This document shows positions 1,531 to 44,092 of a stretch of DNA of 64,000 nucleotides, in pieces. The position numbers and the translations under genes are program-made. Source of the stretch: Caldicellulosiruptor morganii (GTDB taxonomy: Bacteria; Bacillota; Thermoanaerobacteria; Caldicellulosiruptorales; Caldicellulosiruptoraceae); assembly GCF_026810225.1 (NCBI RefSeq), contig NZ_CP113865.1:1446001-1510000 (forward strand). Direction: 5' to 3'. The notes under the pieces are model-generated. The model saw only the letters and a program-made list of their open reading frames with translations. It did not search any database and was not told the origin of the DNA. Positions within the stretch are counted from its first letter, which is position 1. Every line of letters starts with the position of its first letter.

Positions 1531-2478
1531 CTAAATTATCTTGAGCGCAAACACGTTGCAGTACCTGCTACAGTATCCACAGCATAAGCATTTTGTATAA
1601 TCAACAGTAACTTTGCCATCCTTCAGTTTCAGTGCTTTTTGATGGCAATACTTTACACATCTGCCGCACCCTTCACACCAGCTTTCTACATGAAGCCTTT
1701 TTGTTTTTATATTTTCAAGCAGCTTTTCATCTAAATACACTTTCCTTTCTTCAAAACATTTTATGTTGTAATCAATTTCAAATCTGCTTTGCATCCCAAC
1801 AGCAACAGAGTGAAGATATGGAAAGTCAAATACAAACTCAAGAGCATTTTTGAAATCCGAAAGAAGATTTCCACCACCAAATATTTTCATTGCAAAAATT
1901 CCTTTACCTAACCTATATGCTTCTTTTACAGCCTCAATCATCTGGTAAATTGTGCCATCCACAATCCCAATTCCTTTGAAATTGAATATTGGATGTATTA
2001 CTTCAATCTCAGAATACTTGAGTGAATCTTTTACTGCTTTGATATAATGTGTGGATATACCAAAATGCCTAACATATCCTTTTTCTTTTGCCTTCAAAAA
2101 GTATTCTATCGCCTCATAGTGCCCTTTAAAGGTGTGATCACCTTCCTGTTCATGCAACATAAATAAATCGATGTAATCAACATTCAACTCTGATAGTGCT
2201 TTTTTCAAAGATGCTTCTGCAGACTTTTTATCATAAGCATATGACTTTGTTGATATCACCGGTCTTTTCCCACCTATCTCAATAGACCTTCTTATATATT
2301 TGTATGTATCATAGAGTTCAGCCGTATCAACAAAGTTAATCCCTCTTTGATAAGCATATGCTAATAGCTCTGCTCCTTCGTCAACAGGAAGATTTTTCTG
2401 AAGAGGTCCTATGGTCAGTGTCCCAAAACAGAGCTTACTTACAACAAGAGATGTGTTTCCCAATTTAACGTACTCCAT
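1531..2478 (-). CDS. Aldo/keto reductase with C-terminal 2[4Fe-4S] ferredoxin domain
   Basis: An NAD(P)H-dependent oxidoreductase of the AKR fold fused to a bacterial ferredoxin module. The AKR tetrad is visible: DTAELY (Asp, Tyr), STKSYAY (Lys) and MLHE (His). The last 45 residues hold two CxxCxxCxxxC motifs (CEGCGRCVKYC and CLCCGYCSRYC), enough for two [4Fe-4S] clusters, as in the clostridial Fe-S AKR group. Substrate unknown. The frame is open to 2517, but that start lies inside the upstream gene without a ribosome site; the ATG at 2478 has GGTGG six bases upstream and begins MEYVKLG, typical for the family. It overlaps the end of the membrane-protein gene by 14 bases. Confidence 0.87.
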   Translation of the reverse strand: MEYVKLGNTSLVVSKLCFGTLTIGPLQKNLPVDEGAELLAYAYQRGINFVDTAELYDTYKYIRRSIEIGGKRPVISTKSYAYDKKSAEASLKKALSELNVDYIDLFMLHEQEGDHTFKGHYEAIEYFLKAKEKGYVRHFGISTHYIKAVKDSLKYSEIEVIHPIFNFKGIGIVDGTIYQMIEAVKEAYRLGKGIFAMKIFGGGNLLSDFKNALEFVFDFPYLHSVAVGMQSRFEIDYNIKCFEERKVYLDEKLLENIKTKRLHVESWCEGCGRCVKYCHQKALKLKDGKVTVDYTKCLCCGYCSRYCNVFALKII

Positions 2479-22112: not shown

Positions 22113-22139
22113 TTAGCACTCTCATTTGATGAGTGCTAA
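22113..22139 (-). promoter_or_regulatory. CIRCE operator (HrcA binding site)
   Basis: Perfect TTAGCACTC-N9-GAGTGCTAA inverted repeat, located between the predicted -10 element and the hrcA start. Confidence 0.98.
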
Positions 22140-22150
22140 TTCTAAGATAT

Positions 22151-22179
22151 AGGATATCACCTCAGTAGAAAATTGTCAA
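22151..22179 (-). promoter_or_regulatory. Promoter of the hrcA-grpE-dnaK-dnaJ operon
   Basis: TTGACA (22174-22179), exactly 17 bases, TATCCT (22151-22156) on the minus strand. CIRCE overlaps the expected transcription start, and a CtsR-type box lies just upstream. Confidence 0.85.
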
Positions 22180-22187
22180 GTAGATTT

Positions 22188-22204
22188 TTTGACTTTCTTT
22201 GACC
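22188..22204 (-). promoter_or_regulatory. CtsR-type heptad repeat upstream of the hrcA promoter
   Basis: On the minus strand GGTCAAA-GAA-AGTCAAA, an exact match to the CtsR consensus of two (A/G)GTCAAA heptads with an NAN spacer. It lies eight bases upstream of the -35 element. Dual HrcA and CtsR control of dnaK is known in staphylococci and streptococci. No ctsR gene is in the window, so the regulator is inferred. Confidence 0.75.
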
Positions 22205-27474: not shown

Positions 27475-28682
27475 CTTATTCTCACAGGGTGGTTCACACA
27501 CCTGCTACTGGCTATCTGCTCTTTCACAGACTCACCAGCTACCTTTAAAAGTATGTTTATCGCCCCATTTATATCCGCATTCAATACATTCCCACATTTT
27601 TTGCATACATACAAGCCCCTGTGCTTTCTGTTACTTTTGTCAACCACTCCACATCTGCTGCACCTCTGTGAGGTGTAGCTTTTTTCTATCTCCACATACT
27701 CTATTCCATATAATCTGCACTTTGCTTCTAATTTTCTCTTAAACTTCTTGTACGGTATCCCAACAAAGTTCTGATTGTTCACCTTCCCCAGATCTATACC
27801 CTTCTTTATCTCTTTCATCCTGCCCACAACAACTACTCCTATTTTATTTTACAGACAGTGTTTAACTACAACGTTTACAGCCTGATTTAAAAAGTTATCA
27901 ACTATATGCTGTCTTTTAAGAGAAATTTGAGCAAGTTTTGAACCATATTTGATTCCCTGTTTGGAGTATACACTTTGCAGTCTTGCTTTTTCCTTGTTGT
28001 ACCATCGGTTGACTGATTTTAAAAACCTGCCCTCTATCAAAAAGGCAGTCCCAATGGTATCCGTAAGCGCTGCAAAGTTGTTTAATCCCAAGTCTATTGC
28101 CAAAATCTTGCTTCTGTCAAGCTTACAATCCTGCTCCTTTTCCTCATACACATACTCAATCTCAAACCACTTCCCATGGTATCTTGGTATTATCCTGACT
28201 TCCTTTATCTTTTTTCCTGCAATGTTTTTTGGCAAATCAAAATATAAGTATCTTACCCCAAACTCCTTTGAAAAACTTCTGCCAAGACTAAGTCTCACTT
28301 TTCTGTCTTCTATCTTGAACTGGTCTTTTGGGAAAACTATCTGATACATCCCATCCTTGGGTAAGTATCTTGGCATTAAAACTTTCTCTTTTACCTTTCC
28401 TTCCTTTTTGGCTTTCAAAAGGTTCAGAAAAGATTTAAAAGATTCATCCACCGAAATAAGTGTCTGCTGTGCAACCTGTGATGGCAAAAGCATATAGTTT
28501 TCGTTGTCTTTTGCAATGTGATACACACTTTCATATCGCAGGTGTCCATAGGTTTGAAAGTAGTGCTGTCTTACGTGATACAGAGCAAAGTTATACAGGT
28601 TTTTTGAAAAGTGACAGAGCTTTCGCAAAAGTTTGTATGTTTTCTTATCACATCTTATATGATTTTTTTGTGTTTTGTACAC
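27465..28682 (-). pseudogene. tnpB: TnpB (IS605 OrfB) interrupted by one in-frame stop
   Basis: Two segments, 277 and 120 residues, lie in the same reading frame and are separated by a single TAA (27849-27851) and a few codons. The join reads KHCL-stop-NKIGVVVVGRMKEIKKG, where other TnpBs read straight through, so a Glu or Lys codon probably became TAA. The first part has the N-terminal basic region and RuvC-I (ILAIDLGLNNFAALTD); the second has the zinc finger (CSRCG...CKKCG) and RuvC-III aspartate (NADINGAIN). Likely inactive as RNA-guided nuclease. Confidence 0.88.
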
Positions 28683-33177: not shown

Positions 33178-33223
33178 TTTGACCTTTTTTGACCTTGACA
33201 GAATTTATATTTGTAATTATTTT
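33178..33223 (+). promoter_or_regulatory. Promoter of the KaiC-like gene with abutting CtsR-type box
   Basis: The sequence has TTTGACC (33178-33184), a TTT spacer and TTTGACC (33188-33194), which on the other strand is GGTCAAA-AAA-GGTCAAA, a perfect CtsR heptad repeat. It runs directly into TTGACA (33195-33200), with TATTTT (33218-33223) 17 bases on. Another TATAAT lies at 33240-33245. This region plus the feoA promoter accounts for the 330 bases between feoA and the KaiC-like gene. Confidence 0.7.
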
Positions 33224-33271
33224 TATAATTGGAAGAGTGTATAATCCTCCTTTAACAGGGGAGGTGAAAAA

Positions 33272-34171
33272 ATGAACAGGGCAAACAGCGAAGTTCAGGT
33301 AACCCTGGATGCTGTTAAACTCAAAGACCTTTCAAAATCTGCACCAGAGCTTTTTGGAGTCAAAACGGGAGTTGACGGCGTAGATAAGCTTTTTTACAAA
33401 GTTGAGTTTTCCAGAGAACTTGGAAAACCCATCATAAAGCCACTCGGTGGAATTCCAGCATACTCTGTCATGAACCTTAGCGGCGTTGCTGATACAGGTA
33501 AAAGCCTGTTTGCCGAACAGTTTGCTGTAGCTCAAGCAAATGAAGGAAATAGTGTTTTGTATATAACTGTTGAAACACCCGCAGAGTTTCTGTACCCTTC
33601 ACTTCTTTCACGTGCTGCTGCTATGAGTATTGATAAGTCAAAGGTTGAAGAAAATGTATATATGCTCGATATTACCAGAGACTTTAATATACGTGGTAAT
33701 ATAAACAACTTTATTAAAACAATCGAAAATGCCATAACAAGATTTGACATCAAAAATGTTGTTATTGACTCTGTGACCGGATTATTTGAATCAAAAGAAA
33801 TCTATGCAAGAGAAATTGTGAGGACTATTTATAACTTTTTAAAATCGAAAAGGCTCACAACTTTGATGATTTCACAAAAGCGAAGTGGTCAGGAACACCT
33901 TTCGGCCGAAGCTGCAGGCGGATATGCAGTAAGTCATATTGTTGATGGAACAATTGTTTTTTCGAAACAGGTCATAATGAACAGGTTTGACAGTAGCACA
34001 TTCAAAAGACCTATTGGCGATGTAATTAGACTTTTGAGGGTAGATGGTTGCAGAATGTGTGGCCATGACTCCAAGACATATGTATTTGAAATTGATCAAA
34101 ACGGACTTATAAAGGTTCTGTACCCGCTTGGCTATATTGCAGGGCAGCAAAAAGAAGACAAACAAGAGTAA
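33272..34171 (+). CDS. KaiC-like RecA-superfamily ATPase (thermophile-associated)
   Basis: 299 residues with a single KaiC/RadA-type domain. FGVKTGVDGVDKLFY is the KaiC N-terminal signature; Walker A is G71-S78 (GVADTGKS); Walker B is NVVIDSVTGLF; LTTLMISQKRSG follows. Near the C-terminus CRMCGHD is a CxxC pair, possibly metal binding. From memory, this resembles a TIGRFAM KaiC-domain family (AF_0795 type) found sporadically and almost only in thermophiles, always beside a small HTH partner, as here. Function is unknown; regulation by ATP-dependent assembly is inferred. A strong GGGGAGGTG ribosome site precedes the ATG. Confidence 0.85.
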   Translation: MNRANSEVQVTLDAVKLKDLSKSAPELFGVKTGVDGVDKLFYKVEFSRELGKPIIKPLGGIPAYSVMNLSGVADTGKSLFAEQFAVAQANEGNSVLYITVETPAEFLYPSLLSRAAAMSIDKSKVEENVYMLDITRDFNIRGNINNFIKTIENAITRFDIKNVVIDSVTGLFESKEIYAREIVRTIYNFLKSKRLTTLMISQKRSGQEHLSAEAAGGYAVSHIVDGTIVFSKQVIMNRFDSSTFKRPIGDVIRLLRVDGCRMCGHDSKTYVFEIDQNGLIKVLYPLGYIAGQQKEDKQE

Positions 34172-34204
34172 CAAAAAAACTAAAAAAATAAGGGGGTCAG
34201 GACC

Positions 34205-34567
34205 ATGAAAAAAATTGAATTGATTCAGCAAAATGTTGATGAGGTTATAAAACAAATTTTCTCAATTGCAATTGACATATTAGGTGGTCCAAGAAAACTT
34301 GTTGAGTACAGAAGACTTACGTGGCTTGCATCATTAATGGAAGCTATTTTTGTCATTTACCTTCACAATGAAGAAAATAAATCAGCAGATGAGATTGCAG
34401 AATTTCTGGGAATCAGCACTCAAACAGCCAAAGCAATCCTGCAGAGCAAGCCCGAGTATGCAAAGATCAAACTTGAAAGTGGTGAAAGTTGCGAAAAAAC
34501 GCATATTGCAGGCGGTATTGCAAAGCTTGCATACAAAACGTGGAAGGAAACACAAAATGGTAAATAA
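34205..34567 (+). CDS. HTH partner protein of the KaiC-like ATPase
   Basis: 120 residues. An N-terminal helical region (about 1-55) includes DILGGPRKLVEYRRLTWLAS, then a helix-turn-helix at about 58-80, SADEIAEFLGISTQTAKAIL, and a basic C-terminal helix. It follows the KaiC-like gene by 33 bases with an AAGGGGGT ribosome site. I recall a domain model described as a probable regulatory domain found next to KaiC-like genes, which fits. DNA binding is inferred; target genes are unknown. Confidence 0.8.
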   Translation: MKKIELIQQNVDEVIKQIFSIAIDILGGPRKLVEYRRLTWLASLMEAIFVIYLHNEENKSADEIAEFLGISTQTAKAILQSKPEYAKIKLESGESCEKTHIAGGIAKLAYKTWKETQNGK

Positions 34568-41700: not shown

Positions 41701-42770
41701 TTGCTCTTCTCTTCAGATTTTATCAAATCCTCAATGCAAAGTCTTGCCAGAAGATAGCAAATTGTAGATTCTGCACCCTGGTTTTGATTTATTCCATCTT
41801 CTTCAATTCCGTCTCTGCAACCACCGGTATTTTGGTCATATAAAGGCTGTTTATGGATATTTTCTCCCAAAAACCATTTAAATGCTTTTAATGCTTTCTC
41901 TTTGTACTCTTTTTCTTCAGTAATCCTGTATGCCTCTGTATATGCAAGCACACAATCGCATGCATCTATTGGCTGTTCATCAAAATATGGACGATCTTTG
42001 CCTTTTTCATACCAGCCTTTGTTTCCAATCACGCGCAAAATCCCATTTTCAAATAAAATAGGCGTGAGAAAATCAAGCGACTCTTTTGCAACCTTCAAAT
42101 ATTTCTCTTTTTCAGTTACTGCAAATGCTCTGAAAAGCGCATATGGGATAATTGCGTTTGCATATGTGAGCCTGTCAGAAAACCATTTCCAATTTTCATC
42201 AGAATATTTTCTGTAAAGGTTTAGCAGCTTCTCAGACAGAGCTTCCAAATACATCTTTGCCTCGTTTGTAAACTCTTTGATATCGTGCAATACAGACAGA
42301 GCTACAATCGCATACGCCATACTGATAGGATATTTTAGCTCAAGTACATTCCTGAGCAATCGCTTTAACATTACATACGCAAGTTCTTTTATGCTACTGT
42401 CAAGCACCTCAGAAGAATAAACATAAGATAGGGCTATCAACGACCTTGCAAAACAGTCCTCTGTTCCTTTTTCATCAATGAAAACCCTTGAGTAGCTCAT
42501 AAAGTTTTTAAAGTACCCATCTTCAGTATAGCTATTATACAAAAACGCCATGTACCTGTAAACCAAATCAAGGTATGATCTGTCTCCTGTCTTTTCATAG
42601 AGCCTGAGTGCAACAATTAAAGCTCTCGCATTGTCATCTGTTGTATAACCTTCCTTGTAGTTTGGCACAGAAAATTTAGCATGCTGCAAAATACCAGTGG
42701 AGTCTGTCATTCTAAACAGATGCCTTGTGTTTAAAGAAGGCAGGGCAAGTCGTTTTGTCCCTTTTTTCAT
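41688..42770 (-). CDS. (alpha/alpha)-barrel glycosidase-like protein paired with a GT4 enzyme
   Basis: 360 residues, with repeated helical pairs typical of an (alpha/alpha)6 toroid: YTTDDNARALIVALRLYE, GTEDCFARSLIALSYVY, ISMAYAIVALSVLHDI, DEQPIDACDCVLAYTEAY and NQNQGAESTICYLLARL. Conserved acids in TTDDNAR and GTEDCFAR could be catalytic. Similar proteins sit beside GT4 enzymes in other bacteria, but I cannot name a substrate. Its start overlaps the glycosyltransferase stop (ATGA), so the two are translationally coupled. Confidence 0.8.
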   Translation of the reverse strand: MKKGTKRLALPSLNTRHLFRMTDSTGILQHAKFSVPNYKEGYTTDDNARALIVALRLYEKTGDRSYLDLVYRYMAFLYNSYTEDGYFKNFMSYSRVFIDEKGTEDCFARSLIALSYVYSSEVLDSSIKELAYVMLKRLLRNVLELKYPISMAYAIVALSVLHDIKEFTNEAKMYLEALSEKLLNLYRKYSDENWKWFSDRLTYANAIIPYALFRAFAVTEKEKYLKVAKESLDFLTPILFENGILRVIGNKGWYEKGKDRPYFDEQPIDACDCVLAYTEAYRITEEKEYKEKALKAFKWFLGENIHKQPLYDQNTGGCRDGIEEDGINQNQGAESTICYLLARLCIEDLIKSEEKSKEVV

Positions 42771-43927
42771 GCTATCACCCCAACCTTCTTATTTAGTTCT
42801 ACCACATCGTAAAATATATCAATCATCCTCTTTGCAACATTGTGCCAGTACATCTCTTTACCAACTTCTGCTGTCCTTCTCTCAATCTCTTTTCTGAGAT
42901 TTTCATCCTTCAACAGAGTAATAATAGCATCTGCTATAGAATAAGCATCTTCAAACTCAACAAGCATTCCTCTTCCATCAGACAGCATCTCCTGAGCATA
43001 AGTGTACGGTGTTGAGACTATAGCTTTACCACTGCCAATTGCATATGCCAGTGTTCCTGATACCGCCTGCTCCCTCCCTATGTAAGGAGTGAGGTATATG
43101 TCAGACAGGCGCAAATACTCCATTATCTCTCTTTTTGTTAAATATTTGTCCACAAATACAACATTATCTTCTAATTTTAATTCTCTTACCATATTTACAA
43201 GCTTGTCTCTGTATTCTTCACCTTTTATTCTCTTTATGTTTGGATGTGTCTGACCCAAAATTAAATACACTGCATCTTCAAATTCTTTCCTTACCCTGTC
43301 CATGGCTTGTATAGCATACTCCAGACCTTTTCCAGGGCTGATTAATCCAAATGTGCTTATAACCTTTTTCCCATCAAGATTATATTTTTTCTTTAAGATT
43401 TCTTTGTCCTCCAATTCCATATATGGTACTCCATGATGGACCACTTCTATCTTTTCTTCCTCAACATCATACACATCCATCAGTATCTCTTTTGTTGTCT
43501 TTGCCATAGTAATTACCTTGTAGCTTGCATCAGCAAGCTTTTTGAGTATCTCAAACTGTTTTGCTGTTGGGTTTTTCAAGACCGTGTGGAATGTGGTAAT
43601 AATTGGCTTTCTGATGAGCTTCACAAAAGGGACTATATAGTCTCCATCTTCTCCGCCAAATATACCATATTCATGCTCAATTACAACAACATCTATATCT
43701 GACATATTAATCAAGTTTACAGCTTTAACGTAATTTGAAAATTTATCCTGATTAATGTCATATAAAACTCTATTGTCATAAATATGTTTGTCTTTGCTAA
43801 GAGCAATGACATAACAATATTTAACATCATTATATTTTTCAATTGCATTTACCAAATCCTGTGTAAATGTAGCAATGCCACATTCTCGAGGGGGATAAGT
43901 GCTCACAAAAACTGGTTTAATAGACAC
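42767..43927 (-). CDS. GT4-family glycosyltransferase
   Basis: 386 residues, GT-B fold. The N-terminal domain starts PVFVSTYPPRECGIATFTQDL; the C-terminal donor domain has ISTFGLISPGKGLEYAIQAM, DIYLTPYIGREQAVSGTLAYA and SGKAIVSTPYTYAQEML. The usual E-x7-E motif is altered to EQAVSGTL-type residues, as in some sucrose or mannan-type GT4 groups. GTG start with GGGAGGG upstream. Long leader of about 160 bases from its own promoter suggests post-transcriptional control. Confidence 0.9.
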   Translation of the reverse strand: MSIKPVFVSTYPPRECGIATFTQDLVNAIEKYNDVKYCYVIALSKDKHIYDNRVLYDINQDKFSNYVKAVNLINMSDIDVVVIEHEYGIFGGEDGDYIVPFVKLIRKPIITTFHTVLKNPTAKQFEILKKLADASYKVITMAKTTKEILMDVYDVEEEKIEVVHHGVPYMELEDKEILKKKYNLDGKKVISTFGLISPGKGLEYAIQAMDRVRKEFEDAVYLILGQTHPNIKRIKGEEYRDKLVNMVRELKLEDNVVFVDKYLTKREIMEYLRLSDIYLTPYIGREQAVSGTLAYAIGSGKAIVSTPYTYAQEMLSDGRGMLVEFEDAYSIADAIITLLKDENLRKEIERRTAEVGKEMYWHNVAKRMIDIFYDVVELNKKVGVIA

Positions 43928-44092
43928 TTTAATCCCTCCCTTTTAAATAAATTTTTATTAAAGGGACATAATTATCTTTCCCTATTTATTTGAGTATATA
44001 CCTTTTATGTTCTACTCCCTGGAAACCCAAAAACGACATGAAACTTTGAGCCTATACCCCGACTTGTCTTACTTTGACCTTCCTTGATTTTC
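43928..44092 (-). other. Long untranslated leader of the glycosyltransferase gene
   Basis: About 160 bases between the predicted start site near 44086 and the GTG. Contains GC-richer segments (GGGGTATAGGCTC, GGGTTTCCAGGGAG) in an AT-rich region. I do not recognise a known riboswitch. The rest of the 43928-44343 gap holds this promoter and the divergent csoR-like promoter. Confidence 0.4.

Follow-up and report, generated by a model that had tools for sequence, protein, structure and literature searches.

Within the window (the whole 64,000-nucleotide stretch of Caldicellulosiruptor morganii DNA that was analysed), a gene for a KaiC-like ATPase and a gene for a small partner protein lie behind a promoter that carries a putative CtsR operator. 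KaiC-like ATPases are widespread in thermophiles outside the cyanobacteria, and their function is mostly obscure. The features of the locus, followed by those of the window's hrcA operon, are:

33178..33194, minus strand: putative CtsR operator (box), a perfect match to RGTCAAA-N3-RGTCAAA, conserved in 12 of 12 genus genomes
33195..33223, plus strand: sigma-70-type promoter, TTGACA-N17-TATTTT, its -35 element invariant in 12 genomes
33246..33264, plus strand: predicted Shine-Dalgarno-sequestering hairpin CCTCCTTT-AAC-AGGGGAGG, arms at 33246-33253 and 33257-33264, formed in 12 of 12 genus genomes
33272..34171, plus strand: thermo_KaiC_2 open reading frame (TIGR03878), a KaiC-like RecA-fold ATPase with a single KaiC domain, 299 aa
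34205..34567, plus strand: near_KaiC_dom open reading frame (TIGR03879), an all-helical HTH-like partner, 120 aa
34573..34601, plus strand: terminator-like hairpin closing the kaiC operon
22188..22204, minus strand: second CtsR box of the window, perfect, upstream of hrcA-grpE-dnaK
22113..22139, minus strand: CIRCE element TTAGCACTC-N9-GAGTGCTAA in the hrcA leader, by direct sequence reading

The sequence-only reading of this DNA had described a perfect heptad repeat, GGTCAAA-AAA-GGTCAAA on the minus strand, at the -35 element of a KaiC-like ATPase gene with a small partner, and the description was borne out on both counts. A pattern scan of the window places the 17-mer GGTCAAAAAAGGTCAAA at 33178-33194 with no mismatches; TTGACA (33195-33200) comes directly after it, and TATTTT (33218-33223) follows at a 17-nt spacing. 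The two proteins score 421 bits against TIGR03878 (cut-off 232.2) and 123 bits against TIGR03879 (cut-off 65). Because the adjacent open reading frames have a promoter of their own and end at a terminator-like hairpin, they look like a bicistronic operon. The same hairpin is terminator-like on the minus strand too, where it would serve a convergent cysK-like gene.

The ATPase has a Walker A motif (GVADTGKS), a Walker B strand (VVIDS), and the motifs SQKRS and DGCR..HD, all of which are kept in 116 relatives that span archaea and many phyla of bacteria. Its AlphaFold model is confident (pLDDT 89.6), and Foldseek places it nearest to the solved structures of PH0284 (2dr3) and of the KaiC CI domain. 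We considered a circadian clock KaiC, which has CI and CII domains with phosphorylation sites in CII. The 299-aa protein scores 38.7 bits against circ_KaiC, where the cut-off is 546, and its single KaiC domain sets it apart from clock KaiC proteins. AlphaFold models the partner as all-helical (pLDDT 87.9). Its best Foldseek match, a weak one over ~50-60 residues, is a DeoR DNA-binding domain (E ~0.7-1.4, probability 0.92), and its match to Sigma70_r4_2 falls below the cut-off. Judged by their gene arrangement, the ATPase and its partner most likely act together. A PADLOC search gave no match to defence systems.

The sequence of the box, its conservation, its specificity across the genome and the adjacency of the two genes are direct observations. 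Both the TIGR03878 gene (above cut-off) and ctsR (PF05848) are present in all 12 genus genomes, the ctsR of the window's own genome being confirmed at 121 bits. At the homologous position of the kaiC promoter, all 12 carry the box, five of them perfectly and seven with one mismatch, which is always a single change to GGTCAGA in one heptad. In the alignment of the 12 promoters, the 17-mers over the box and the -35 element are the best conserved (15/17 positions invariant, against a mean of 6/17), while the kaiC upstream regions overall are 63-78% identical to the window's. The gene upstream of kaiC is feoA in four of the genomes and varies in the rest; the box is always with kaiC. Divergent feoA was considered as the owner of the box and ruled out, as the box is still at kaiC in genomes without feoA. 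Since the box stays with kaiC and is highly conserved despite changed neighbours, the operator belongs to the kaiC operon and is under constraint.

Perfect RGTCAAAN3RGTCAAA sites number five in the 2,475,467-bp genome, where Markov models of order 1-4 predict ~0.3 per genome and ~3e-5 per 250-bp promoter, and the reversed control pattern has no perfect site in any of the 12 genus genomes. When three mismatches are allowed, the window has 11 sites against 9.3 expected, which is chance level, so weight was given only to sites that lie at conserved positions and have at most one mismatch. The four perfect boxes other than that of kaiC lie at operons that, from their translations and general family knowledge, we take to be ctsR-mcsA-mcsB (one box, locus L001), hsp20-clpB (two, locus L002) and hrcA-grpE-dnaK (one, in the window). 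All three are textbook CtsR promoters, the CtsR regulon of Bacillota being known for ctsR-mcsA-mcsB-clpC, the clp genes and dual CtsR/HrcA control. The perfect box and the CIRCE element at 22113-22204 of the window would place hrcA-grpE-dnaK under such dual CtsR/HrcA control, and of the two hsp20-clpB boxes (L002:1501-1580) the second comes shortly before the Shine-Dalgarno sequence of hsp20. The likeness between the kaiC promoter and the known CtsR regulon extends to the heptads and their spacing, to the presence of ctsR in the genome, to a box that overlaps or abuts promoter elements, and to an hrcA operon in the same window with a CtsR box and CIRCE. It differs in its target, which is neither a chaperone nor a protease but a KaiC-like ATPase and its HTH-like partner, and in the placement of the box, which abuts the -35 element and has the minus-strand orientation with respect to the gene. 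The company kept by the other perfect boxes, together with the conservation of this one, supports the earlier placement of the pair in the heat-responsive CtsR regulon, for which both the box upstream of orthologues and a CtsR in the genome are now found throughout the genus. On this sequence evidence we hold CtsR control of the kaiC operon to be highly probable, and its extension across the whole genus very likely. Further CtsR targets were sought among the one-mismatch sites of the genome, which are mostly intracoding and were taken as chance background. In other genomes of the genus, perfect sites away from kaiC and the classical targets were likewise set aside; these are intragenic (L149, L151 and L152) or unassigned (L150).

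The leader holds a feature that the sequence-only reading does not mention. Between the promoter and the start codon, a predicted 8-bp stem, CCTCCTTT/AGGGGAGG, buries the Shine-Dalgarno sequence. Elsewhere in the genus, CCTCCTTT pairs with AAAGGAGG or AAGGGGGG across loops of 7-9 bases; among all 12, both the sequence and the length of the loop vary, one-sided U-A/U-G changes preserve pairing, and the inner end of the stem has a C-A mismatch in one genome. Apart from that one base, the left arm is invariant in a leader that varies otherwise, and because this arm hardly varies, no compensatory double changes are seen in the stem across the 12 genomes. A search for a hairpin followed by a start codon matched the kaiC leader in 12/12 genus genomes, and nearly all other matches resemble intrinsic terminators, as judged by the T-rich sequence after them. 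For the window's kaiC, the predicted unpaired probability of the Shine-Dalgarno sequence rises from 0.01 at 37 C to 0.16 at 70 C and 0.22 at 75 C, the last value being the second lowest among the 28 window genes that have such a sequence (median 0.79 at 75 C). When leaders are shuffled, only 0-4 of 400 have a Shine-Dalgarno sequence equally closed at 70 C. At 37 C, the leader of one genome (G008) is predicted to favour another fold and that of a second (G006) to be half closed. Conservation, low accessibility and the shuffling result together make the hairpin well supported as a conserved feature of the leader.

This hairpin is a candidate RNA thermometer or a candidate brake on translation. 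It is predicted to be closed at 70-75 C and, in most species, to open no lower than ~85-90 C. Because the folding energy parameters are extrapolated at growth temperature, the stem has no compensatory changes, and Rfam covariance models, including those of known thermometer families, gave no match to the kaiC leader, we can only infer opening with temperature, and the odds that the leader is temperature-responsive stand about even. Some of these points favour the strongest alternative, in which the heat response is transcriptional only, through CtsR, and the CCTCCTTT...GGAGG hairpin is a constitutive brake or an mRNA-stability element: the predicted opening comes close to, or exceeds, the likely upper limit of growth, and neither covariation in the stem nor a known RNA family speaks for a thermometer. 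However, the anti-Shine-Dalgarno arm is invariant in an otherwise varying leader, the hairpin arrangement is essentially unique to kaiC in the genus, and the operon is already linked to heat. We regard the constitutive alternative as a serious one, with somewhat less than an even chance of being right. Elsewhere in bacteria, kaiC leaders that occlude the Shine-Dalgarno sequence are represented by one strong case, and the median unpaired probability is otherwise 0.71 at 70 C. That case, in another Bacillota genus (L064, ~2325-2365, minus strand), is a very stable hairpin, CCTTCCAAGGTAAAATTTTACCTTGGGGGG, unlike the genus stem in sequence, with an unpaired probability of 0.03 at 70 C; its gene has neither a CtsR box nor an adjacent partner.

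Outside the genus the arrangement changes. TIGR03878 occurs in 13 of the 398 genomes of the phylum sample searched, eight of which are of the genus and five from three other genera. All five of the latter have ctsR, and four have a perfect or one-mismatch CtsR box near it, but none has such a box at the KaiC gene. The near_KaiC partner is absent from beside the KaiC gene in all five (L064-L068), unlike in most other lineages, and a genome-wide search of four of the five gave no near_KaiC_dom protein over the cut-off. Because these five Bacillota have both ctsR and the KaiC gene and have no box there, CtsR control is, on the genomes compared, a trait of the genus and not ancestral. In a tree with long branches, the genus kaiC groups with archaeal sequences, apart from those of other Bacillota, which makes acquisition by transfer plausible, not proven. 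At 67 distant loci, the partner is on the same strand as the KaiC gene, and in 62 it is downstream, nearly always immediately. The genus pair resembles those of archaea, Nautiliaceae, Dictyoglomaceae and others in being adjacent and co-directional, and differs in its short partner (120-127 aa), most archaeal and Nautiliaceae partners having ~200-230 aa with an extra C-terminal part. Nothing convincing came from motif searches in the upstream regions of distant loci, 80 of which were scanned for CIRCE, HAIR, HSR1, CtsR and sigma-32-like elements and another 30, all archaeal, for HSR1, Phr and CIRCE; a Phr protein query (checked against 2p4w) found solely distant homologues in the searched phylum sample.

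These comparisons also bear on what might read the box in the genus. Another repressor could use it, or the HTH partner itself in an autoregulatory loop, the CtsR match then being incidental; the operon does encode an HTH-like protein, and any repressor could act at a site abutting the -35 element. Against this, the same 17-mer pattern at zero mismatches marks the canonical CtsR regulon and nothing else in this genome, and relatives with the same partner family do not have the box, so that we consider this quite unlikely. That the box is a functionless chance or inherited sequence retained through close kinship is less credible still: 12 species of one genus are non-independent samples, yet box and -35 element have stayed nearly invariant within much more divergent upstream regions, a chance match at any one promoter is very rare, and the box was kept while the gene neighbourhood changed.

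The explanation we favour is a CtsR-repressed heat-shock operon whose leader acts at least as a translational gate, a combined account to which we give a probability of roughly 0.78. At normal growth temperature, CtsR on the direct-repeat box touching the -35 hexamer would block RNA polymerase; under heat stress it would be released, as at its ctsR-mcsA-mcsB, hsp20-clpB and hrcA-grpE-dnaK targets. For the steps that follow, as for CtsR binding itself, we infer events from the sequence: the mRNA would start a few bases past the promoter, and its 8-bp leader hairpin, pairing CCUCCUUU with the Shine-Dalgarno sequence, would keep translation low. As the hairpin is predicted to open solely at higher temperature, it may form a second gate at the level of RNA, and the kaiC operon is then probably a heat-shock operon in which heat is sensed twice, by the CtsR box and by the Shine-Dalgarno hairpin. 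The ATPase, which by analogy with KaiC may be an oligomer, would switch the DNA-binding or signalling state of its partner during heat stress.

The combination had been put forward as undescribed. Our search of the open-access literature turned up no study that connects CtsR with KaiC-like genes and none of relevance on KaiC in Caldicellulosiruptor. A heat-induced pair of a KaiC-domain protein and a regulator has, however, already been reported: in Pyrococcus furiosus, PF1931 (KaiC-domain) and PF1932 (a predicted regulator) are strongly heat-induced and have palindromic Phr motifs, according to a 2023 study (PMC10746257). Matched by description alone, that pair shares with ours the protein types, neighbouring locus numbers and heat induction, and differs in its repressor, Phr, and in its domain of life (PMC10746257). 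For the leader, the closest parallels are the translational RNA thermometers fourU and ROSE and Yersinia lcrF, where thermosensing is by protein plus RNA (PMC3280987). The likeness lies in a Shine-Dalgarno sequence paired in a short leader hairpin, together with a heat-responsive transcription regulator. Unlike these, the candidate thermometer of the kaiC leader has a simple 8-bp CCUCCUUU/AAAGGAGG stem outside the Rfam families and a thermophile host.

The tie to a defined heat-shock regulon gives the KaiC pair a setting in physiology and a regulator that is concrete and testable. Should the leader hairpin be a thermometer, then protein and RNA thermosensing would act on one operon in a thermophile, and should PF1931 and PF1932 belong to TIGR03878 and TIGR03879, an archaeon would have this pair under another heat-shock repressor. 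With the Pyrococcus report, the CtsR tie suggests that the pair was taken up for heat stress separately in two domains of life; if true, this would open a family of long-obscure function to direct tests. We offer as a possible, tentative generalization that the KaiC-like ATPase/HTH pair, shared by thermophilic bacteria and archaea, serves heat stress in general and that different lineages have each connected it to a repressor of their own (CtsR here, Phr in Pyrococcus), with double gating in this genus by the repressor and an RNA thermometer over the ribosome-binding site.

Elsewhere in the window, an open reading frame at 27849-28682 encodes an OrfB_IS605-type, TnpB-like transposase, the C-terminal part of which is apparently missing in this frame. 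The TTGACA/TATAAT promoter of a glycosyltransferase gene (42770-43927, minus strand) is followed immediately by a degenerate triple heptad, AATCAAGGAAGGTCAAAGTAAGACAAG on the minus strand, at 44063-44089; it has the geometry of the ctsR promoter and is possibly a weak CtsR site.
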